Below, in pieces: positions 5,984-21,514 of a stretch of 22,241 bases of DNA. This DNA is from a virus. The stretch lies in the IMG/VR virus record IMGVR_UViG_3300025280_000205, positions 1 to 22,241 of that record; one strand, 5' to 3'. Each line of letters begins with the position of its first letter. Within the stretch, counting starts at the first letter, position 1. Position numbers and translations under genes: made by a program. The notes beneath the pieces were generated by a model. That model did not search any database and was not told the origin of the DNA. It saw only the letters and a list, made by a program, of their open reading frames with translations.

Positions 5984-6604
5984 GTGAGTGATTTAAAAGA
6001 ATTAATACCTACAATGTACTTTCGTGATAGTGATGGAGACTACCACAAATGTCATAAACTACTACCAGATATTAGAAGAATATTTGGAGAAATAGAATAT
6101 ATAGATGGAGAACCTGTGGAAATAATACCTAACGAAACAAAAGTAAGAAAACCTAAAATTGATGTGTACTATTCAAGATCAATAAATGAAGATGGAACAT
6201 TTTCAAATGAGGTTGATGAGAACAATCAGAAGTATGTTGCAAGTGTTATAAGAAATACTTGGAAATGCAGAGTACTTGAGTACCCTAAAACATCTCCTAT
6301 TGATTATTACATAGAGAAAGATGGAAGGGGATGCTTTGGAGATAATAAGACAAGACTGTCAAAACCATTAGACTATGGCATTCTTAATGTGAGAAAGTAT
6401 CTTGTACTTATGGATGCAGCTAGATTGTATGACTGCCCTTCATTTGTATTCTTCTATGATGAAACTGGGGTTTATTATTCTGATGTAAGGAAAGTTAAGG
6501 GGTATGAAACTTTTTTAGTAGGGTCAAAAACTAAAAAATCCTCATGTGATAAACAAGAGCCAGCAGTTAAGATATTCAAAAAAGATATGAAGAGGTTGCT
6601 TTAA
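5984..6604 (+). CDS. Candidate PD-(D/E)XK nuclease-fold protein
   Basis: This 206-residue protein is the last gene on this strand. Its second half resembles small PD-(D/E)XK nucleases. There is a helix (YVASVIRNTW), then SPIDYYI with D107, then GDNKTR giving D120-x-K122 and R124, then a helix with the VRKYL lysine K138, and two further strands (CPSFVFFYDETG, VYYSDVR). D107...D120-x-K122 would be the catalytic motif. Such enzymes act as phage recombination exonucleases or endonucleases, which suits the neighbours. The first 80 residues are not recognised. The start is GTG 5984 with no clear ribosome site; ATG 6014 is an alternative. Its stop codon overlaps that of the opposing giant gene. Confidence 0.5.
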   Translation: MSDLKELIPTMYFRDSDGDYHKCHKLLPDIRRIFGEIEYIDGEPVEIIPNETKVRKPKIDVYYSRSINEDGTFSNEVDENNQKYVASVIRNTWKCRVLEYPKTSPIDYYIEKDGRGCFGDNKTRLSKPLDYGILNVRKYLVLMDAARLYDCPSFVFFYDETGVYYSDVRKVKGYETFLVGSKTKKSSCDKQEPAVKIFKKDMKRLL

Positions 6605-9600
6605 AGATTAGGAAATGCTGACCATTCATTTCTCCATTTAGGATCAGCTATTACTCTTAAATATCTTCTTAATCTAACTTGATATTGTGCTTTAACAGAC
6701 TCAGCCATTCGTTTATTTTCTGGAGTAAGCCAATCTAAAAATTGTTGCTGTTTAGATTTTGTTGTTCCTTCCATTTTATCAGATATATTATAAGGATCAT
6801 ATAGTTTTATAGTTTGTTTTATAGACTGCCTTACGCTCTTAGCTACTTTCCAAGGTTGCATGTAAGGGTCATCTTGCAGTTCCATATCTACAATAGCACT
6901 AAAAGCTTTCCAATACTCTTTTCCAATATCTTCGTCTGACCCAAACATCATTGCATATTTTAAATTTCTATAATAAGGTGATCTTCTTGAAATTGCTCCC
7001 TCATCAGAATAACGTGCTTCACCTTTTTCCTTTAAATATTTATGCTTCATTGAACGTATCTGCATAAAGTCTTTATAATACTTAGATGAATGTACTTTAG
7101 GAAAGGCATCTCCAAATTGACCAACAATGACAGCTGTCTTTTTTGCATAATCTGTTGCAGCTTGAGAGAGAGATTTACCACCAAGCATGTATTGTCTAAA
7201 CTCAGTTCCAGCTTGGCTTAAATTTCTAAGTATAATTGGAGTATTAAGTGGAACTGCTAAATCTTTTTCATGCGGACTTAAAGCTTCTCCAAACATTCCA
7301 AAGAACTCTGATCTCCAAAGATTCATCATCACATCGCTAAACCAATCTCCCTGTAATTTTTCAGAGCCGACAGGTTTAATTTTGCCAAATAGCTCATCAT
7401 ACATGGCATATAAAACTGCACCACTAACAGAATGGGCTAAAGCTGCACGTGCAAGTGGCATAATATTACCAAACTCTACAATTGGTTTTATAAAATTTCT
7501 ATGAGTATCAATTGTAGTAGCTGTAGCAATACGTTGGAACAAGGTAAATGGCTTTGCTTCCTTAGATGACATCCACAAAGGAAGTAATACAGTAGATGTT
7601 CCACCTTGTGCTGATACGTGAGAGAAATGTCCTACTTTATGAAGTATTTCTGCATGCTTTGACATTGCTTCTTGTGATGAAAAATCTTTTGCATTTTTAA
7701 GAAAGCTTATTTCTTCTGCATCTAAATGCCAAAGTTCTTCCATAAGTCTTTGCATACGCTTCTTATTTGTGCCCATCTTAAACATTCCACCTTCGCCACG
7801 AAGTATAGATTGAGCTTGAGCAAAATATAAGTGACCAGCATGGGAAGATACAATTCTGTTGAAGTTTTCAGTAGGTGTCATCCAATTTATATACTTAAAC
7901 ATATTTCTAAGATTAAAAAATCTTCCAATACCAATAGTACCAAGCTCTAAAGTTTTAGCACCATATTCAAGCTCTCCTCTACGCCTTGCTTCATGATATG
8001 CCAGTGAACTGAAACTTTTTTTGATACCACTCATTGTATTTAAAAATCCAAAATCACCTATTGATCTTGGTATACCAATAAGTAAATTCTTTATACCAGA
8101 CATAGGAGATGAAAGACCGAGAGCTGCTGATGTATGTGTAAGAGCACCAAGCACTCTATATGTAGGCATATTAAGTGCCTGCATTTCAGTCTTGTCAATT
8201 CCAAGTTGTCTCTTTATAGCTTTAATAGAATATCCAGCCATATCAGGTCTAGTTTCCATTTGTTCCATAATCTTACGTTTATTCATGTCTATTTTATACT
8301 TACTACCAACACCAGTCCACTCAGGGAAAAGACGTACACTTGCAAGATACTTAGACATTCTAGTTACATAAGTCTCAGCAGTAGCAGACATTGAATCGTC
8401 ATAAACCTTAATCTTTTCAAGTCTACCCTTATCATTTGTTACTTCAACATGTTCTTTCAATAAAGAATTACGTTCAATAAGATGTGGATTTTTAACAGTT
8501 GCATAACCATACACCATAGAATCATAAAGTTCTGTACGAACATCTTCATAGAACTCTTGACCTTCTTTTGTAGATATATCTTTTAATCGTTCTTCAAGAA
8601 TTTTAATTTCTTCTTCAGAACCTACTTTCAATCTTTTTTTAGCCTCAGCTCTTGCAGCTCCACCCTTTATATTTTCATTAACAAGATCAGCTATAAAGTT
8701 TTTATCTTTTTCAATGTATTCAAGACCCTTCTTTGTGAGCCTACGTGTCATATAGCCATCAACTTTTTTACGATCAAGTTCTTTCATTATATCTTTAACT
8801 TCTTGTGGTGTTTGATGCTTGCTAAGTTCAGTTTCTAATGACTTCCAATAAAATTCTGATAAGGCATTCCAAGTTTGATGAGCCTTATATTCATCAGAGT
8901 TTTTATTTGGATTTTTGCCGAAGACATTATCATAAAAAGACCTTTCTTCTACTGTTAAATTACCTTCATCATAATTTCTTTTAGCCCTCTCCTTATCAAA
9001 CAAATGTATATACTTTATTTTATTACCAAGTCTTTTCTTTATTGTATGCATAGCCTGATCTCCTGGCCCTCTGTATTTAACATGCTCTACCCATTCGTGA
9101 TCTAAAAGGCTCTTTGCTATCTTCTTACCAGGTTCACCACCATAGTTTTTTAGAACAAGCCATACAGGCATCATACCTCTTGATACATATTGTTTCCAAC
9201 TAAATTTCTTACTTCCTAATTCCTGAACTTCATCAAAGTTGGATCGTTCAAGGACTGGCTTATCATACTGCTGACGTATGTATGAAGAATATTCTTGAGC
9301 CTGTTCTTTAGATGCATACTCATACATACCATCTTTAACACCCATAAGTTTAAGTATTTGTGTAGATGCTTCTGGAGATACATGATACTGTTTATTAATA
9401 TCAGGTATTGTAAGTCTTGCAAGACTACTATTTTTACCACCACCCTTAGCATCAGTAAGTATTTTTTCATAATCTCTTACTTGCTCAACAGTATATTTGT
9501 GAAGTTTGCCAGTTAAATTTGTTGTACCAAATACATCTAACCTTGCCTTCCTTTTTACACTTGGATCAACCTTATCTTCAAGCCCATTGACTTTTATACG

Positions 9601-12600
9601 ATTCATTACATTTCTAATATTTTGAGCGGTTTGATATTTGGTTGCAGTCTCGACCAATCTACCTTCAGGAAGCTTTCCTTCAAGAACTTTTTCACCGAGA
9701 AGACGAGTAATATCTGCTTCATTATGAATACCAAGTTTTGTTTTCATGTTACTCCAAAACTTTTGTAGCCAATTTTTAACTTTACTTGCCATTGATTTAT
9801 TACGCATTCTACCTGCAACAAATTCACCAATAGATTGTACAAGTCCTTCTTCACCATTAAATTTACTTTCACCTTCACGTATAAGGTCTTTACTTTTCTT
9901 ATCACCAAATGCACGAAGAATATCAACTACGTGGTGAGATATTTCATGGGGAATAGTATCAGCTCTAGCACGCCCTCTAGCAATCTCAGCTACATAGCCA
10001 GATACACGACCAAGTATATATTCACCTTGAAACTTACCAAGCTTATCTTTTAAATATATTTCAAACTCAGGATATTTTTCTTTAAAGTATTTGATCTGAG
10101 CCTTCATCTCTTTTAGGGAAGTTCCCATCTCGGAAGCAGCTGATTCAAGTTGAAGTTTATGTTCTTTAGTTGTTATTTCTGTTGGAGCTACATAACGCTT
10201 AGTTGCTATTGTAGTTTGATGCCCCCTTCCCTCAGCAGCAGCTCTTAACCTAGCCTGATCTGCTTCAGTTTCATAAACTCTTCTATATATTTCAGCAGGA
10301 CTTCTACCAAAAGAAGCCCTAGTCATTCCTTTTCCTTCTGTTAATGCCCCAGGGATTGGCTCACCCCATCCATAGACCTCTCCCTCAAATGATTGATAGA
10401 CATTTATTTCTCCACCAGATTTTTCAACCGCCTCATATGTTATCTTACCAAATTCTTCTGGAGTTATTTTAAATACACCCTCTTTGCCTTTTAGATTATT
10501 AGCCTTCATGTAGGCATCTAAATCTTTTGCAAGGTCTAAATCTACCTTTATACGAACTTTACCATCTTTAGAAGTTTTAAATCCAATTGCACCTGTTTCT
10601 GGATTTACTTGATCCGCTTCAAGATAACGTATTTCCCCTGTTCTAGCTCTAAATAAATTAGCAACTCTTATTGCAAGAGATGCACCCTCTCCACTAAGTT
10701 CTCCAACCTTGCTTTGCTTTTTAGACCAATCAGCAGCATCATCTATTGCCTCTCTTGGTGTCTTTCCAACCTTTCCAACAACGACAGCTCTCTCACCCTC
10801 AACAACAGGTTTTGTTAAGCCCTCCGTAATTCTTTTTCTTAGTGGAAGGAAATCTGCAAGACCAGCATTAGACATTTTAGACAAGTTATCATAAATACGT
10901 ATTCCTTGGCTTCTTATAAAATTAGATTTATTAGCTGGGATGCCTAGCTTGTTCCACTCAGCCTTACTAACAAAAACATCATAGCCTAGTTTTTCAGTAA
11001 CATAATCTCTTGCAAGATTTTTAATTTGAGTATCACTCAACTTTGTTATATTTTCTTTATATCTTTTTTCTACCCAATTTAGAAATTCAGATGTTTCTTT
11101 AACAGCACCAAGCAAATTCTTTTGACGTGACTGATTAATAACTTCAGCTAAAATATTTTTGTGAGTTCTAGCAACTTTAGAAAGTTTTAAAGGCTTTCCT
11201 TCCGCATCTGCCTCTGGAAATGCTTTATCTATTTCAATAAGAGCATTGTCTTTTGGGGTCTTTACTCTCCCTTCTTTTGTTTTTAATGGTTTGCCAGTAC
11301 CCTCTTTTGCCTGTTGGATAATAGAATCAACATCCTTTTTAGATATTTTGCTTGGGTCTCTTCTGCCTTGCAACTCAGCAATACTCATTGTCTGACCTTT
11401 TTTCCTACCTTCTAAATCTGCAAGCCTATCCTGTTCTTGCTCCAATCTTTTAGTAGCTTTCTGCCTTCCCTCAATAGACTCTAAATCATAGCCACCCTCT
11501 TTACTAAAGTCAAATCGTGTCTGCGTTTTTCCATCTATTAAAATTGGTTTCCCATCTTGATCTTTAAGAATATTTTCATATTCAATTATCTCTCTACGCC
11601 AAGGCTCTAGCGGAGCTTCTTCACCCTTGCCATGATTTCCATCTGTTTCTTCAGACAATTTAACTAAGTCATCTAAAGTTCTTTCAAAGTCACGTTTAGA
11701 ATTTTTATAAAATGGAGCAACTGCATCACTAGCATTTTTTATTAATCTATCCTCAACAGCAATTAAGCTATTTAAAGCATTTTTAAAATCTACAACTGTA
11801 TCTTCGGATATATCACCAGACTCTCTAATACGATTAATGGTAGAACGTAGGGCACGATACTCTTCTAAATTTTTAGTATGCTCGGCATCAACTCCAGTCT
11901 TCTCACCATATAGCATATCTATATCACGAAGAAGCTGATCAGCTTGGTCTATCTTACCTTCGCCTCTTAATTTTCTTTCTTGTGCTATGTATCCCTGTAA
12001 AATATTATCTAAAGCCCTGCCCTCAGATGTGACACCATCTTCTTTAACTCCAAGCTTTTCCCTCTCAGCAGCTTCAAGCATATCAAGATGCATGTTTCCT
12101 TTATCAAATAATTTTTCTACAACCTTTCCCTTGACTTTGAGTACACCAAATAAACCTAGGTTTTTAAAGTATGATTTTAATGCATCTTGGTATCTAAAAT
12201 CTCCACCATTCATTACATTTTCATATTGCTCAGCAGCAGTGAATACACCAGATTCAGCACCTATTTGCCCTATAGTACCTGAAGCTATAAGTTTAGCATG
12301 GTCAGTCCCAGTAAGCATCTTAGTAGCTTCTTTAGTTCCCATTCCATACTTCCCCGCAAGCTTACCTGCACCTTCAAAACTACGAATAAGCTCGGCATTT
12401 ACATATCCTAATCCACCACCAACTCCACCTGCAATACCACCAAGAACAGCACCATGCATAGCACCATCAGTAACGCCTTCCCATACATCATTACCATCAA
12501 TAGCAGCTTGTACACCACCTATAGCACCCTCATAAACAGAAAGAGCACCAGCCTGTTGTGCCATTTGGGGAATTATGTGTCCCATTCCAATTTGTCTTGC

Positions 12601-12972
12601 TGCCCTAGCCATTTTAACATTTACACCAGCAAGTGCAAGACCACCCCTAGCAGCTGCTCCACCAGCAGCCATAGCAAGAAAGTCAAGTGGCATCATAAAT
12701 GAAAGGGCAGTTGAACCTATATCTTCTAATACATTAAGATTATAACCTTTATCAAGGTTATAGCGTTGCTTCCCTGTTAACATTTTATCCACCATTCCCT
12801 GCAACGATCTATTATAAGCTTCTCTAGTCCAATTCCAAGATTTTTCATTAATTGGGCCATCAAGCCAAGATTGAAATGAATTTAAATAATCTGGGGAGTC
12901 GTTTACAGGAGACTCATAGATTCCTTCACCACGCTGAAGTCTTTCTCTTTCAGCATTAATATTAAATGGCAT
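6601..12972 (-). CDS. Giant presumed virion/ejection protein with tyrosine-recombinase-like and zinc-metallopeptidase domains
   Basis: At 2123 residues this is by far the largest gene. Residues 85-195 hold Gly/Ala-rich hydrophobic segments (for example AMAAGGAAARGGLALAG and GAVLGGIAGGVGGGLGY), as in ejected proteins that cross the host envelope. A charged coiled-coil region lies around 500-530. Residues about 600-935 resemble a tyrosine recombinase, and residues about 970-1090 carry HEISH (1009-1013). The C-terminal half is helical, with further hydrophobic stretches near 1605-1640 and 1840-1865. It recalls the large polyvalent proteins with LPD38-type domains in phage genomes, a tentative match. 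Its ATG directly follows the TAA of the 662-residue gene with no gap, at the end of the late operon. A likely role is delivery into the host with the DNA. The recombinase may be active or a structural relic. Confidence 0.75.
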   Translation of the reverse strand: MPFNINAERERLQRGEGIYESPVNDSPDYLNSFQSWLDGPINEKSWNWTREAYNRSLQGMVDKMLTGKQRYNLDKGYNLNVLEDIGSTALSFMMPLDFLAMAAGGAAARGGLALAGVNVKMARAARQIGMGHIIPQMAQQAGALSVYEGAIGGVQAAIDGNDVWEGVTDGAMHGAVLGGIAGGVGGGLGYVNAELIRSFEGAGKLAGKYGMGTKEATKMLTGTDHAKLIASGTIGQIGAESGVFTAAEQYENVMNGGDFRYQDALKSYFKNLGLFGVLKVKGKVVEKLFDKGNMHLDMLEAAEREKLGVKEDGVTSEGRALDNILQGYIAQERKLRGEGKIDQADQLLRDIDMLYGEKTGVDAEHTKNLEEYRALRSTINRIRESGDISEDTVVDFKNALNSLIAVEDRLIKNASDAVAPFYKNSKRDFERTLDDLVKLSEETDGNHGKGEEAPLEPWRREIIEYENILKDQDGKPILIDGKTQTRFDFSKEGGYDLESIEGRQKATKRLEQEQDRLADLEGRKKGQTMSIAELQGRRDPSKISKKDVDSIIQQAKEGTGKPLKTKEGRVKTPKDNALIEIDKAFPEADAEGKPLKLSKVARTHKNILAEVINQSRQKNLLGAVKETSEFLNWVEKRYKENITKLSDTQIKNLARDYVTEKLGYDVFVSKAEWNKLGIPANKSNFIRSQGIRIYDNLSKMSNAGLADFLPLRKRITEGLTKPVVEGERAVVVGKVGKTPREAIDDAADWSKKQSKVGELSGEGASLAIRVANLFRARTGEIRYLEADQVNPETGAIGFKTSKDGKVRIKVDLDLAKDLDAYMKANNLKGKEGVFKITPEEFGKITYEAVEKSGGEINVYQSFEGEVYGWGEPIPGALTEGKGMTRASFGRSPAEIYRRVYETEADQARLRAAAEGRGHQTTIATKRYVAPTEITTKEHKLQLESAASEMGTSLKEMKAQIKYFKEKYPEFEIYLKDKLGKFQGEYILGRVSGYVAEIARGRARADTIPHEISHHVVDILRAFGDKKSKDLIREGESKFNGEEGLVQSIGEFVAGRMRNKSMASKVKNWLQKFWSNMKTKLGIHNEADITRLLGEKVLEGKLPEGRLVETATKYQTAQNIRNVMNRIKVNGLEDKVDPSVKRKARLDVFGTTNLTGKLHKYTVEQVRDYEKILTDAKGGGKNSSLARLTIPDINKQYHVSPEASTQILKLMGVKDGMYEYASKEQAQEYSSYIRQQYDKPVLERSNFDEVQELGSKKFSWKQYVSRGMMPVWLVLKNYGGEPGKKIAKSLLDHEWVEHVKYRGPGDQAMHTIKKRLGNKIKYIHLFDKERAKRNYDEGNLTVEERSFYDNVFGKNPNKNSDEYKAHQTWNALSEFYWKSLETELSKHQTPQEVKDIMKELDRKKVDGYMTRRLTKKGLEYIEKDKNFIADLVNENIKGGAARAEAKKRLKVGSEEEIKILEERLKDISTKEGQEFYEDVRTELYDSMVYGYATVKNPHLIERNSLLKEHVEVTNDKGRLEKIKVYDDSMSATAETYVTRMSKYLASVRLFPEWTGVGSKYKIDMNKRKIMEQMETRPDMAGYSIKAIKRQLGIDKTEMQALNMPTYRVLGALTHTSAALGLSSPMSGIKNLLIGIPRSIGDFGFLNTMSGIKKSFSSLAYHEARRRGELEYGAKTLELGTIGIGRFFNLRNMFKYINWMTPTENFNRIVSSHAGHLYFAQAQSILRGEGGMFKMGTNKKRMQRLMEELWHLDAEEISFLKNAKDFSSQEAMSKHAEILHKVGHFSHVSAQGGTSTVLLPLWMSSKEAKPFTLFQRIATATTIDTHRNFIKPIVEFGNIMPLARAALAHSVSGAVLYAMYDELFGKIKPVGSEKLQGDWFSDVMMNLWRSEFFGMFGEALSPHEKDLAVPLNTPIILRNLSQAGTEFRQYMLGGKSLSQAATDYAKKTAVIVGQFGDAFPKVHSSKYYKDFMQIRSMKHKYLKEKGEARYSDEGAISRRSPYYRNLKYAMMFGSDEDIGKEYWKAFSAIVDMELQDDPYMQPWKVAKSVRQSIKQTIKLYDPYNISDKMEGTTKSKQQQFLDWLTPENKRMAESVKAQYQVRLRRYLRVIADPKWRNEWSAFPNL
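9703..10065 (-). other. HExxH zinc-metallopeptidase-like region inside the giant protein
   Basis: Covers residues about 970-1090 of the giant protein. ADTIPHEISHHVVDIL contains H1009-E1010-x-x-H1013 on a hydrophobic helix, as in zincin peptidases. About 37 residues on, SIGEFVAGR offers E1050 as a third zinc ligand of gluzincin type. A preceding strand-like GEYILGRVSGYVAEIA fits the upper-rim strand of such folds. Zincin-like domains are known in phage polyvalent proteins. The substrate could be the giant protein itself, another virion protein or a host protein. Confidence 0.65.
10168..11115 (-). other. Tyrosine-recombinase-like region inside the giant protein
   Basis: Covers residues about 620-935 of the giant protein. 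Residues 626-700 are helical, like a SAM-like core-binding domain (SEFLNWVEKRYKENITKLS). The catalytic part has RTGEIRYLEADQV (R777, E780), matching the family's 'R-x-x-E-x-x-x-L-x-x-x-D'. Next come a beta-hairpin FKTSKDGKVRIKVDL (K802 or K805), an arginine in GMTRASFGR (R885 or R890), and GRGHQTTIATKRYV (H918, Y927), with the usual nine residues from His to Tyr. The box II histidine is not apparent: at HxxR the position is Gly (before R885) or Ser (before R890). R885 to H918 is about ten residues longer than usual. Most catalytic positions are therefore present. Confidence 0.7.
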
Positions 12973-14961
12973 TTATTCTTCCCCTTCTTCTGGATTCCAA
13001 TTTTTAACTATATTATATATATCAGTAACAGCTAAACCAGCACCAACAAGAGATGTAGCAAGTGAGAACCAACCACCACCAAGTACCGCAGCAGTACCAA
13101 TCTTTTTTGCTGTATTTTTAGCCATAAATCTTAATAAATATTGTTGACCTTTAGGACTTTGTATAATTCTTTTAAGCTGGGGAAAGAATTTCTTTACTGT
13201 CATTTTCTCTGCTGCATAACCAGCAGTAATATCAACAGCAATTCTTGGAGCACCTTCAAATTCAAATCCAAATACCTTATCAGTTAATATACTTCCTATA
13301 GCATATCTTTGTCCTAGTTTTGGAAGTCCGCCTTTAGCCTTCCATAAATTCCATTTATCTGTTGTACCTTTTTTAAATAAGCTACTTATTATCCTAGGTT
13401 TAGTCTTAAACTTTTTAGCCCATCTTTTTGACATACTGTCTTTAATGTTATCTATCTTAGAAGTTGCTTTAGTAAGGTCTCTTTTATTTTGATTTAAACG
13501 AAGTCTCTCTTTTACGTCAAGGGTTTTTATGCCCTCGGCATTTTTTATTTTAGTTTTAAGCTCTGCTATATCAGTTTCTAAGCTTTCTATGTTTTTTAGA
13601 TTAGCACCAACATCTTTTGAGCTTAAAAATTCTCTTATTTGGCCTGGTCTTAAATGTGTAAGCTCTTCTATATATTTCCCAGCTTTGATAGTAACATCAG
13701 CTACTTTTGCTCCAGCCTTTGCAATATTTTCTGCCTGATATGCTGCACCAGCAACACCAATACCAATGCCAAGCTTCCCTAATGCACTCGTATCTTCATC
13801 TGATATACCCGCAGCTTCTTTTACTTTTTCCGCCCTACCTTTTGGCTCACCCACAGTTGCTTTTACTTGTGGAACATCTAATATAGTTTTCTCACCCTTA
13901 CCAGACAAGATTTGTTCTTGTATATTTGGAGGTATCTCATGTAATGAAAGATCGGCAGTTCTAAGAAAATCAGTTCCAGTTAAATCTATATTAGTACTAT
14001 TAAGATTATTTAATTGCTGTGGAAGAGAATCATATTCTTTTATTAAGCTATTTAAAAATTTTCTCTCAACACTACCTTCGGGTGTAGCACTTAATTCCTC
14101 AGCAGTAATATTTATAGTTAGTCCCGACAATTGATCTTTAAATGGAATAACACCACTATTCTCAAGTAAATTATGTAATTGTGAATATCTTTTTGCACCA
14201 GTAAGAAGCTCGTTAGTATTAAAAGTAATAGCAGCTGTCTTGCCAACCTTCTCGTCATTATAATATTTTGCCACAGGAGCATAATTAAGATTTTCCCAAG
14301 CATCAGTATAGGCTTGCATCTCTCTATCATCAATTAAATCATCTTCTCTTGCTTCTGCTAAAAGAAAATCATTTATATTTTTGGCATTTGTAAGTTCTGT
14401 ATTGATATGTTGAAATGGTTTTAATTCAAGTCTATCAGCAAAATCAATCTTCATCTTATTCGTATGATCCATCCATTCCTTTTGCATCTCTTTTATAATT
14501 TTATAATCATTTTCATCCAATGTACGCTGATTACCTTCCGCATCTACACCAATATTTTGCATATCATATGATAATTCTTTTTTTAACCGCTCACCATCAG
14601 CCACAAGAAAATTAAAATCTTTATTCTTTTCTTGCTGTGTACCAAAGTCTTCAAGCATGAATTGACCCATCTCTAAAGTATTCTCATCCATACTACCTCT
14701 ATGTTTATTATAGTAGTTTTGGAATCTTTCTTTTTTTCGTTCTAAATCTTTTTCATTGAAGGTCATTGAAGTACCACGTGAAAGCTCAGACATAATACTT
14801 TGTCTTTGTGTATTCTTACGCTCATTCCATGCACGTTGCTCTTGACCCATTTCCCATGATTCTTTAAACACATCTAAATAGTCAGACTTAGTATCTCGCC
14901 CTTCTATTTTTTTAAGCTCTTGGTTTATAAGTGCCATCATATTGACATTATTAATTGCCAT
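12973..14961 (-). CDS. Presumed internal virion/ejection protein (662 aa)
   Basis: No family is recognised. The first 230 residues are charged and helical, with many Q, E and K (ERKKERFQNYYNKHRGS). The middle is mixed. A Gly/Ala-rich segment near residue 395 (LGKLGIGIGVAGAAYQAE) is followed by coiled coil around 455-515 (NIESLETDIAELKTKI). The C-terminus has a long hydrophobic Gly-rich stretch at about 623-652 (VLGGGWFSLATSLVGAGLAV) before an acidic end. Helices plus a membrane-like tail, next to the giant gene, suggest a partner in DNA ejection, comparable in position to podovirus internal core proteins. The start is ATG 14961 with GGGGG ten bases upstream, two bases after the preceding stop. 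It abuts the giant gene exactly. Confidence 0.6.
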   Translation of the reverse strand: MAINNVNMMALINQELKKIEGRDTKSDYLDVFKESWEMGQEQRAWNERKNTQRQSIMSELSRGTSMTFNEKDLERKKERFQNYYNKHRGSMDENTLEMGQFMLEDFGTQQEKNKDFNFLVADGERLKKELSYDMQNIGVDAEGNQRTLDENDYKIIKEMQKEWMDHTNKMKIDFADRLELKPFQHINTELTNAKNINDFLLAEAREDDLIDDREMQAYTDAWENLNYAPVAKYYNDEKVGKTAAITFNTNELLTGAKRYSQLHNLLENSGVIPFKDQLSGLTINITAEELSATPEGSVERKFLNSLIKEYDSLPQQLNNLNSTNIDLTGTDFLRTADLSLHEIPPNIQEQILSGKGEKTILDVPQVKATVGEPKGRAEKVKEAAGISDEDTSALGKLGIGIGVAGAAYQAENIAKAGAKVADVTIKAGKYIEELTHLRPGQIREFLSSKDVGANLKNIESLETDIAELKTKIKNAEGIKTLDVKERLRLNQNKRDLTKATSKIDNIKDSMSKRWAKKFKTKPRIISSLFKKGTTDKWNLWKAKGGLPKLGQRYAIGSILTDKVFGFEFEGAPRIAVDITAGYAAEKMTVKKFFPQLKRIIQSPKGQQYLLRFMAKNTAKKIGTAAVLGGGWFSLATSLVGAGLAVTDIYNIVKNWNPEEGEE

Positions 14962-16721: not shown

Positions 16722-16757
16722 TTAATTTAATTGTGCCTCTAAGGCTGTTACTTTTTT
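16722..16757 (-). other. Out-of-frame coiled-coil extension after the fibre stop
   Basis: Reading past the fibre stop in the +1 frame gives 11 codons, KKVTALEAQLN, then TAA at 16722-16724. Joined to the fibre end (AMQII) it forms an amphipathic helix with hydrophobic residues at 3-3-4 spacing. The junction, ATT-TAA-A followed by a run of A, could allow +1 slippage at the stop or reflect a one-base indel. The frame also holds an ATG 27-codon ORF (from 16805) with no ribosome site. Confidence 0.35.
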
Positions 16758-18174
16758 AAATAATTTGCATTGCAAAACATGTAAATGTTTGAGCAGTACT
16801 TCCATGTGTATTATTAACTGTTATATTTCGACTACTCCCAGGATCAGTAATTGTTGAACTGGTTGCTGTAGCTATTGCTGACAAACCATCTACATAAGTA
16901 CTTCCTACATTAAAACAAGAAATCATAACAGCAGATATATTAGACCTTACAATCAGAAGATAAACTCCAGCAGCTAATAATTTATTTTCACTAGCCCCAG
17001 CAGCAAGATTTGCAGTAGTCCAAGACACAGTATTCATATTGGTTTGTGAAATACTATCAAGTCCAGTTAAAGCACCAGAAATATCAGCAGCTCCATTAAT
17101 ATCTAATGAACCACCTTCAACTTCTCCACTAGTCTCTATCTTTCCACTTCCAGCATCTATTTTACCTGAGCAAGTAAAAGTTCCAGTTCCAGTGATATTT
17201 CCTGAGCTATCGCCAGTTAGCCAAACAACTGAACCATCTCCTGATGAAATAGAAAGTTGGTCATCAGCATCTGCTGTAACATCAGCTCCACCTATAACAA
17301 CATTATCGTGTCCACTTGTAATATTATTTCCAGCATCTCGTCCTATACATATATTATCATCTCCAGTTGTTATTACATCAAGCGATCCTCCTCCTATAGC
17401 TATATTGCCAGCACCAGTACAAGTTCCATCACCTACTCCAAACATTGCTCCTTTTCCAACTGCAATATTATTATCTCCACTATCCCTATTATTCATTGCA
17501 CTATGCCCAATAGCAACATTAGAACGAGCAGTAGCATCTGCGGCATTAGGATCACAAGTCTTCATAGCATTATTGCCAATAGCTATATTATTAAGAAAAG
17601 TATCACTCCCACCTACATCAACAGCATTACAAGCCTGATCACCAATAATTACATTACCACTAAATAAACCAGACCCATCAACATCAGTCACACCTAAGGC
17701 ATTCTCAGCACCAATAACAATATTACTATTACTAATATTACCATTTTTTATTCTACCTCCTAAAAGAATATCAGTAACAGTTGTAACTCCATCTGCTGCT
17801 GCAATACTAAATTTAGTGGAATTAGATGTACCAATTGTTAATGCACCATCAGCAGCTACTCTAAGTGCTGACTTTGAAGTAGAATCTTCACCAATCCTAG
17901 CAGTACTGCCAAAGAAAGCAACTTTCTTATCAGCTTTTATAATCTCAATACCATCACTACTTATAGATAAATGTTCTGATAAATTAGTACCAATCTTTGT
18001 TACACCATCAATAGAAAAGGGATTATCATACCATCTTCCGCCAATCTTACCAAATAATTTAGCACCTAATTGTGTCTGTCTTATCTGTAAATCGCCATCA
18101 GCACCCTCTCTCCTATTAGGAGAACCAAGCTTGTTGGATGTGACTGGTCTATTTGCTCCGCCCCAATTACTCAT
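16756..18174 (-). CDS. Tail fibre with YadA-like head repeats
   Basis: This 472-residue fibre begins with DGDLQIRQTQLGAKLFGKIGGRWYDNP, a head often seen in aquatic phage fibres and probably the virion attachment end. Residues 151-300 carry eight N-[IV]-x-[IV]-G-x-x-[AS] repeats, as in the left-handed beta-roll of YadA-type trimeric adhesins. Residues 325-385 are Gly/Ser-rich beta repeats (GKIDAGSGKIETSGEVEGG). The last 85 residues look like a beta-rich tip that may bind the host. The start is ATG 18174, overlapping the nozzle stop as TAATG. Just past the stop, the +1 frame reads KKVTALEAQLN, a possible missing coiled-coil end. A trimeric receptor-binding role is inferred. Confidence 0.75.
   Translation of the reverse strand: MSNWGGANRPVTSNKLGSPNRREGADGDLQIRQTQLGAKLFGKIGGRWYDNPFSIDGVTKIGTNLSEHLSISSDGIEIIKADKKVAFFGSTARIGEDSTSKSALRVAADGALTIGTSNSTKFSIAAADGVTTVTDILLGGRIKNGNISNSNIVIGAENALGVTDVDGSGLFSGNVIIGDQACNAVDVGGSDTFLNNIAIGNNAMKTCDPNAADATARSNVAIGHSAMNNRDSGDNNIAVGKGAMFGVGDGTCTGAGNIAIGGGSLDVITTGDDNICIGRDAGNNITSGHDNVVIGGADVTADADDQLSISSGDGSVVWLTGDSSGNITGTGTFTCSGKIDAGSGKIETSGEVEGGSLDINGAADISGALTGLDSISQTNMNTVSWTTANLAAGASENKLLAAGVYLLIVRSNISAVMISCFNVGSTYVDGLSAIATATSSTITDPGSSRNITVNNTHGSTAQTFTCFAMQII
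17275..17724 (-). repeat. Eight YadA-head-type protein repeats in the fibre
   Basis: Units start at fibre residues 151 (NIVIGAENAL), 174 (NVIIGDQACN), 196 (NIAIGNNAMK), 219 (NVAIGHSAMN), 236 (NIAVGKGAMF), 257 (NIAIGGGSLD), 274 (NICIGRDAGN) and 291 (NVVIGGADVT). The spacing is irregular (17-23 residues), with loops of different length between beta-roll turns. The DNA has diverged, so these are protein-level repeats. Confidence 0.85.
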
Positions 18175-20789: not shown

Positions 20790-20938
20790 TACAGACTATT
20801 TATTACCTTTTTAACTTCAGCCCAAGCTTTATCATCTTTCTTAGACTTTGTTATTTTAACAGCAATATCACCTACTTTAATGAGTATAGCTTTTAATCCA
20901 TGTTTTTTAACTGCTTTTGCTAATAATAATTTTAACAT
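20789..20938 (-). CDS. Small protein, paralogue of its upstream neighbour (49 aa)
   Basis: The start is ATG 20938, sharing one base with the preceding stop; its own stop shares a base with the nozzle ATG. The N-terminus is a basic amphipathic helix (MLKLLLAKAVKKHGLKAILI), then KVGDIAVKITKSKKDDKAWAEVKK. The segment 'T-x-S-x-x-DD-x-x-W-x-x-V-KK-x-I' matches the neighbour at 20938-21084, so the two look like diverged copies. Similar short phage proteins with a 'T-x-x-x-DD' motif occur near holin genes, but their function is not established to my knowledge. It is probably membrane-associated. Confidence 0.55.
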   Translation of the reverse strand: MLKLLLAKAVKKHGLKAILIKVGDIAVKITKSKKDDKAWAEVKKVINSL

Positions 20939-21084
20939 TATTTACCTACTATTTTATATATTGATTTTTTAATTGATGTCCATATAAGATCATCCCATTC
21001 TGTTGGACTAAGTGCAACAACCTTATCTATAGCTAGAATACCTATTACTACATATTCCCAATTTGCTGATAATAGTTCTACCAT
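20938..21084 (-). CDS. Small single-span membrane protein (48 aa)
   Basis: The start is ATG 21084, directly abutting the upstream gene's stop, with AAGGAGA about eight bases upstream. One hydrophobic segment, WEYVVIGILAIDKVVAL, is followed by SPTEWDDLIWTSIKKSIYK. This resembles the C-terminal part of the next gene's product and points to duplication. Size and layout fit a small phage membrane protein of the holin/lysis region, though it has only one span and no proof of pore function. No named family is recognised. Confidence 0.55.
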   Translation of the reverse strand: MVELLSANWEYVVIGILAIDKVVALSPTEWDDLIWTSIKKSIYKIVGK

Positions 21085-21339
21085 TTATTTATTTTCTCCT
21101 TTTTTAAAAAGTTTAATTATAATGTCTTTTATTACACCTACAGCTGTCATTGTTTTCTTAACCTCGTCTTTTGCTTCACGATTACTATCTATAAGCTTCA
21201 CAGTTATATCGTGCAAGTTTTTAATATCTTCTTGTACATCTCTTGTTAGAAACCTTATTAGATACATAAGAGCATAGCCTAGACCCAATGCTACAGAAAC
21301 TGGAATCCCAATTGTCTCGATTATTCCTACTATATCCAA
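21085..21339 (-). CDS. Holin-like small membrane protein (84 aa)
   Basis: The start is TTG 21339, chosen because GGGAGG lies six bases upstream and the sequence after it (DIVGIIETIGIPVSVALGLG) opens a membrane segment running to about residue 30. A long charged helix follows (RDVQEDIKNLHDITVKLIDS), ending in a basic tail (IIIKLFKKGENK). One N-terminal span plus a charged helical tail resembles BhlA/UviB-type holin-like proteins. It lies between two other tiny membrane-protein genes. No endolysin is in the window, so a lysis role is inferred from form only. Confidence 0.55.
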   Translation of the reverse strand: MDIVGIIETIGIPVSVALGLGYALMYLIRFLTRDVQEDIKNLHDITVKLIDSNREAKDEVKKTMTAVGVIKDIIIKLFKKGENK

Positions 21340-21355
21340 CTACACCTCCCATGTA

Positions 21356-21511
21356 TTATTTAAGCTCTTTGTATATTTTAATTATTAAGTACACTAGTGT
21401 GGCAACTCCTACGCCTAGGCTTACAGCTTCAGGAAGCCAGCCACTAATAGATAACCACCATCCACCCATGCCTGCTCCTGTTGTTTTTAATGTGTCTACT
21501 ATTCCGTCCAT
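21356..21511 (-). CDS. Holin-like small membrane protein (51 aa)
   Basis: A 51-codon frame from ATG 21511, with AGGG about ten bases upstream, ends 16 bases before the next gene. The sequence is MDGIVDTLKTTGAGMGGWW, then one or two hydrophobic segments (LSISGWLPEAVSLGVGVAT, LVYLIIKIYKELK). The 'WLPE' turn before a span ending in 'KIYKELK' is like several short putative phage holins. It probably sits in the inner membrane with the basic end in the cytoplasm. Pore formation is not shown by the sequence. It is the first of four consecutive tiny genes. Confidence 0.6.
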   Translation of the reverse strand: MDGIVDTLKTTGAGMGGWWLSISGWLPEAVSLGVGVATLVYLIIKIYKELK

Positions 21512-21514
21512 ATA

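Follow-up and report, generated by a model that had tools for sequence, protein, structure and literature searches.

Phage integrases are usually early, separately expressed enzymes, and the tyrosine recombinase (TR) fold is also found in inert regulators such as YopR and MrpR of SP-beta. Virion proteins that act on phage DNA after entry are known as well, as in the Mu gpN-type protein, which is injected and circularises DNA and is not a recombinase. In T7, tail proteins are followed by two mid-size proteins and then one giant (gp14-gp15-gp16), and the cargo of gp16 is a transglycosylase. Polyvalent phage proteins have been proposed as injected effectors, and neither recombinase nor integrase is ever mentioned in the main text of that work (PMC5512222).

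The locus analysed here lies in a 22,241-nucleotide virus record (IMGVR_UViG_3300025280_000205; the whole stretch is called the window), in which the ORF at 6601-12972 on the minus strand has a 2123-aa product (Table 1). A 28.8 kb record, L001, carries a 100% identical copy of the giant gene, and scanning IMG/VR with alignments of the giant protein turned up 49 distinct homologues, including partial ones, whose environmental contigs reach 51 kb; relatives are 29-44% identical. Since the whole protein by itself found nothing useful in Pfam, PHROGs, NCBIfam, PDB or 50,697 phage records, the case made below rests on its relatives. Pairwise comparison and alignment reveal a common layout, in which the N and C modules are conserved, the latter without a PDB match, and between them come first a hypervariable slot and then a zincin-like segment; the slot (residues ~560-935) is unalignable between many members, whereas both flanks are conserved (blastp/MAFFT). 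As judged from profile and fold comparisons, the occupant of this middle slot is almost certainly a tyrosine recombinase homologue.

Table 1. Coordinates of the features of the window and of its relatives (positions without a record name refer to the window)
Feature	Position	Strand	Basis
Giant late ORF P0001, 2123 aa	6601..12972	-	ORF translation; identical copy L001; relatives
Conserved N module, residues ~20-440, Gly-rich, SFMMPLD motif	11653..12915	-	blastp/MAFFT conservation
Hypervariable cargo slot with TR region, residues ~560-935	10168..11295	-	flanks conserved, slot not
Helical region in core-binding-domain position, residues ~599-730	10783..11178	-	AlphaFold helices; SAM hits in L025/L010
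TR-like catalytic region, residues ~745-930	10183..10740	-	Pfam, PDB profile, hhalign, AlphaFold, Foldseek
R777, box I Arg	10642..10644	-	invariant 13/13; E780 at 10633-10635
R897, proposed box II Arg	10282..10284	-	invariant 7/7 subgroup
H918 of 'RGH'	10219..10221	-	H, Q or lost in subgroup
Y927, proposed nucleophile	10192..10194	-	Tyr recurs 7/7; model confidence low here
Zincin-type metallopeptidase-like domain, H1009-E-I-S-H1013, candidate third ligand E1050	9643..10155	-	conserved HExxH and IGE motif
Conserved C module, residues ~1130-2123	6604..9585	-	conservation among relatives
662-aa syntenic neighbour, function unknown	12973..14961	-	synteny
472-aa tail-spike-like protein	16756..18174	-	phrog_4636 E=9e-14
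Permuted slot TRs, box I (TGPRLNE) after Tyr	L024:6989-8173; L032:7076-8239; L039:4885-6060; L037:7175-8341; L008:12104-13294; L047:7001-8149; L020:7241-8314; L029:7175-8344; L065:6797-8149; L006:6099-7289
Split-gene lineage example L049	5433-9023 (N module + permuted TR) and 9014-12073 (C module)

Comparison of 33 slot regions with 24,736 Pfam families identified PF00589 (Phage_integrase) as the family matched by most members, followed by two integrase SAM-like families. Individual slots reached 1.2e-13 (L022), 8.6e-6 (L048) and 1.7e-5 (L021) against PF00589, and further Pfam matches were obtained for L025 (SAM-like, 9.5e-6), L010 (3.4e-4) and L006 (1.1e-3). The Phage_int_SAM_1/SAM_4 matches in L025 and L010 fall on the equivalent of residues ~599-730 of the window protein, a stretch with no direct Phage_int_SAM match of its own, in which the first-pass annotation had seen a helical region at the place expected for a core-binding domain; AlphaFold indeed predicts helices there. 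Residues 616-720 also have a weak match (1.9e-4) to PHROG 15646, a phage family of unknown function. The window belongs to a subgroup of seven (with L021, L048, L044, L028, L002 and L005), and its slot matches that of L021 at 2.7e-32 by blastp. A 13-slot profile led by the window and run against PDB with hmmsearch retrieved a XerA-like structure (4a8e, 4.2e-8) and XerA (5hxy, 4e-6), then IntI4, XerH and XerD, with 9i5v_14, labelled RaiA, also among the matches. Likewise, hhalign of the seven window-type sequences against seven known recombinases (lambda Int, P2 Int, Cre, XerD, FimB and two streptococcal integrases) gave E=6.9e-6, with the C-terminal part out of register. Limited to the window plus its two nearest relatives, the profile gives a weak signal (XerA, E=0.19).

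The AlphaFold model of the slot (pLDDT 74 overall, above 90 in most of the core and below 50 around the Tyr) has XerA as its top Foldseek match in PDB (E 1.4e-4, prob 1.0, TM 0.27-0.33); the four matches that reach E<=0.001 all resemble XerA, and among the top 50 almost every entry is a recombinase or a regulator with the recombinase fold. The predicted fold is Xer-like, though Xer structures give low TM-scores (0.26-0.39). The first-pass annotation had proposed an integrase-like domain from its motif and had named the lack of a profile match, a fold unlike that of Int, or poor conservation of R777 and Y927 as what would count against it; we found family profile matches, a Xer-like fold and, in the relatives, recurrence of R777 and of a Tyr equivalent to Y927. 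It could still be argued that an unrelated protein, coiled or helical, carries the motif by chance, given that neither the window protein nor its TR region has a profile match when taken alone. We consider this extremely improbable, because PF00589 leads the 33-slot scan and all 13 divergent slots share R777, and the individual Pfam, PDB-profile, Foldseek and hhalign results contradict it too.

The slot recombinase has the box I R-x-x-E, basic beta-hairpin, box II Arg and GH-x-Tyr in the order seen in Xer/XerA-type recombinases and phage integrases (PF00589), XerA being its top match by both sequence profile and fold. Unlike these enzymes, it is embedded in a 2100-aa late protein, lacks the box II His, has a relaxed third His and gives low overall TM-scores. 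The residues first picked out in the window (R777, E780, K802, K805, H918 and Y927) are all in place, 10168-11115 corresponding to residues 620-935. All 13 slot sequences have R777, E780 is nearly invariant among them, and K802 and K805 sit in the beta-hairpin of the model, the loop of which aligns loosely. One assignment has to be changed: R885 or R890 had been taken as the second catalytic Arg, and both were rejected in favour of R897 (in 'IYRR'), which fits better and is invariant in 7/7 members of the subgroup. With R897 as the box II Arg, the distance to H918 is 21 residues and therefore close to normal, and the longer spacing reported earlier disappears. The missing box II His was correctly noted: this His/Lys position is Glu in the window (E894) and variable in the subgroup. 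The third His is kept in the window, L002 and L044, is Gln in L005, L028 and L048, and is lost in L021, while a Tyr follows the GH/GQ motif in 7/7 members by motif inspection, at a spacing that is 9 in the window and variable across the subgroup. Because both His positions are relaxed in the subgroup, altered activity of the window copy is possible.

These substitutions bear on a different interpretation of the slot, as an inert TR fold that serves as a sequence-specific DNA-binding module, organising or protecting the incoming genome or regulating early transcription. Loss of the box II His, a Gln instead of the third His in half of this subgroup, and the presence of YopR, MrpR and SroF among the fold matches would all agree with it, YopR and MrpR being alike in their TR fold and degenerate catalytic set. 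However, the slot recombinase keeps both Arg and the Tyr throughout the subgroup, and it lies in a late fused protein, not in an early regulator; the slots of L022, L060 and L062 retain the full HxxR, later His and Tyr; and dN/dS in the L025/L058 slot is 0.30, indicating some constraint. We therefore regard an inert fold as unlikely. As read from these alignments, the family includes members with a full catalytic set, some of which are probably active, and the version in the window is a relaxed one, which may be catalytically weakened; that it is fully active seems to us somewhat doubtful.

The slot appears to be exchanged between lineages. L021 and L022 are 63% identical in the N module, 80% in the zincin segment and 78% in the C module and only 19% in the slot, where their recombinase types differ, and L004 and L020 show a similar profile (54%, 77%, 57% and 19%, respectively). 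Conversely, in L025 and L058 dS is 0.079 in the slot vs 0.60-0.62 in the N and C modules, and DNA identity peaks at 99.7% over residues 701-800, from which a recent exchange of the slot follows. Over residues ~600-850 of the giant ORF of this pair, DNA identity is ~95-99.7% in the slot and ~80-88% over most of the flanks. On this evidence recombinase types swap between close relatives like a cassette; some relatives (L009, L012, L013, L017, L031, L033, L066 and L068) have no TR at all. A separate observation concerns L011 (L011:9320-16258), whose giant protein is 21% identical to that of the window and lacks the zincin motif, while its neighbouring genes are among the closest to those of the window (DnaB 73%, 871-aa protein 52%), making exchange of the whole gene likely. 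A hypervariable, exchangeable slot between conserved flanks is a pattern typical of conflict cargo, and the TR could be an injected effector that damages or rearranges the DNA of the host or of competitors (plasmids, prophages, dif) or that counters a defence system, a role that would itself account for the rapid swapping and that has a precedent in the proposal made for polyvalent proteins (PMC5512222). Nevertheless, no target was identified, and the window, which cannot probe a site in a host, has no dif-like site; we consider a conflict role very unlikely.

In ten members (L006, L008, L020, L024, L029, L032, L037, L039, L047 and L065) the beta-hairpin, box II and GH...Y come first and the box I segment follows the Tyr. 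T, R and E are invariant in this displaced segment, and T-x-P-R-x-x-E is found in nine of the ten. With the segment moved upstream in silico, the profile score rose from 34.9 to 43.4 in the comparison with known recombinases and from 34.6 to 57.3 in that with the window subgroup; no gain against known recombinases came from moving other segments. The profile picks up this order in the split-gene lineage described below as well. A model of the permuted form has a pTM of 0.70 and values above 90 for the box I region, and its fold search returned Cre-like entries first at a non-significant E of 0.2, the viral library being non-significant too. One TR type thus appears, by its motif order, to be circularly permuted, the alternative being that the segment is the remnant of a second recombinase; the window's own TR domain has the ordinary order. 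As far as found in the literature searched, which was incompletely covered, this apparent permutation would be the first natural one in the TR superfamily.

The source is an uncultured tailed phage that bears a portal and is laid out much like a podovirus. The order of its genes is conserved, with tail-type genes and several proteins of unknown function ahead of the giant gene and, after it, a convergent block encoding a PDDEXK-like protein, a RuvC-like resolvase, a DnaB helicase, a DNA methylase and a Sak annealing protein; the structural arm of relatives includes a portal (phrog_156), a terminase and a tail fibre. This arrangement resembles T7 gp14-gp15-gp16 in gene order and relative sizes (here 267, 662 and 2123 aa) and differs in that neither the giant gene nor its neighbours match them in sequence; the neighbouring tail-gene products likewise had no sequence match to known ejection proteins and no PDB match. 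Polyvalent proteins such as N4 virion RNA polymerase and P1 DdrB are alike in being very large, late, multidomain proteins encoded near tail genes, with a zincin domain and changing enzymatic cargo. However, MPTase-PolyVal (PF18818) had no match in 12 records despite the HExxH and conserved Glu, and LPD38 had none, in a search whose control was likewise unmatched; the giant protein is therefore likened to the polyvalent proteins, and not filed as a member. Unlike a stand-alone phage integrase, the TR is embedded, and no separate gene, att or dif site was found. All matches to PF00589 at E<=0.01 in 32 records lie inside giant ORFs, in a search that misses divergent recombinases, most slots included, and in records that are incomplete. 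The first-pass annotation had envisaged action on genome ends, integration or interference with host Xer recombination, for which we found no support: the best dif-like site in the window scores 20/28, as in shuffled sequence, with none at <=3 mismatches, and neither a relative nor a lysogen was found in 84,980 prokaryote genomes. Between the 871-aa and 201-aa late genes, 725 bp (20790-21514) without a convincing gene could be a regulatory or site-bearing region; its inverted repeats are short and at chance level.

The zincin-like segment carries the motif PHExSHxVV (with H1009, E1010 and H1013) and has no Pfam match. HExxH is present in 25/28 single ORFs bearing a TR vs 0/8 without one (Fisher 5.5e-6, a test that ignores the relatedness of members and uses TR calls made partly by eye), the TR members lacking it being L011, L048 and L044. 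In L009 (L009:9863-15499) the TR is lost and KEISK (PKEISK) stands in place of HEISH, a pattern of loss suggesting that the peptidase is kept only alongside a fused TR. In L049 and L052-L057 the N module and TR are in one gene and the C module in another, and HExxH is absent; L054, L055 and L056 are split as in L049. The simplest reading, we infer, is that the zincin would separate the TR half from the C half wherever the two are fused.

Release of the TR by the zincin could instead occur in the producing cell, where it would resolve dimers or concatemers, or recombine phage DNA before packaging in the manner of Cre, without ever being injected. The late position of the gene, the adjoining zincin and the lack of a separate integrase or resolvase-type TR in the 32 records would fit such a role. 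Fusion to a protein that is conserved even without a TR, and that is encoded among tail genes, favours delivery, as does the parallel with virion-borne multidomain phage proteins; moreover, the window encodes a RuvC-like resolvase of its own and relatives without a TR exist. A function confined to the producing cell is accordingly quite unlikely.

Homology to TRs, swapping of the slot, co-occurrence of zincin and TR, adjacency to tail genes and the lack of a detected separate integrase are what can be read from the sequences. The explanation that we prefer, in which the virion delivers a TR cargo that the zincin releases and that acts on DNA at entry, has as a whole about an even chance of being correct; that the TR is delivered in the virion is in itself somewhat favoured. 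The modular late protein would most likely belong to the large internal virion (ejection) proteins, packaging and injection being inferred from the position of its gene, and the TR in its middle slot would replace a stand-alone integrase. The adjoining zincin would probably cut the polypeptide, so that the N module and recombinase become separable from the C module; self-cleavage, activity and substrate are all presumed here. The released recombinase, delivered with or bound to the phage DNA, would then work at specific sites in DNA immediately on entry; it might, for instance, join or process the ends of the genome or carry out recombination with a site of the host. Exchange of the slot between lineages would alter site specificity. 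The likeness to Mu gpN is one of idea only, that of a virion protein acting on genome ends after entry. A more far-reaching picture, of a phage family without a free integrase whose ejected giant protein delivers interchangeable, protease-released TRs, one widespread version of which is circularly permuted, is on balance doubtful.

The literature searched, the coverage of which is incomplete, held no report of a recombinase as polyvalent or virion cargo, or of permuted TRs. The cassette-like exchange of the slot suggests a DNA-recombining cargo, perhaps injected with the genome. If this were true, recombinases would join the known virion-borne cargos, and the family would lend itself to tests of cargo exchange, protease release and target site. 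If a TR carried by a late giant protein is delivered with the DNA, site-specific recombination could start before phage gene expression.
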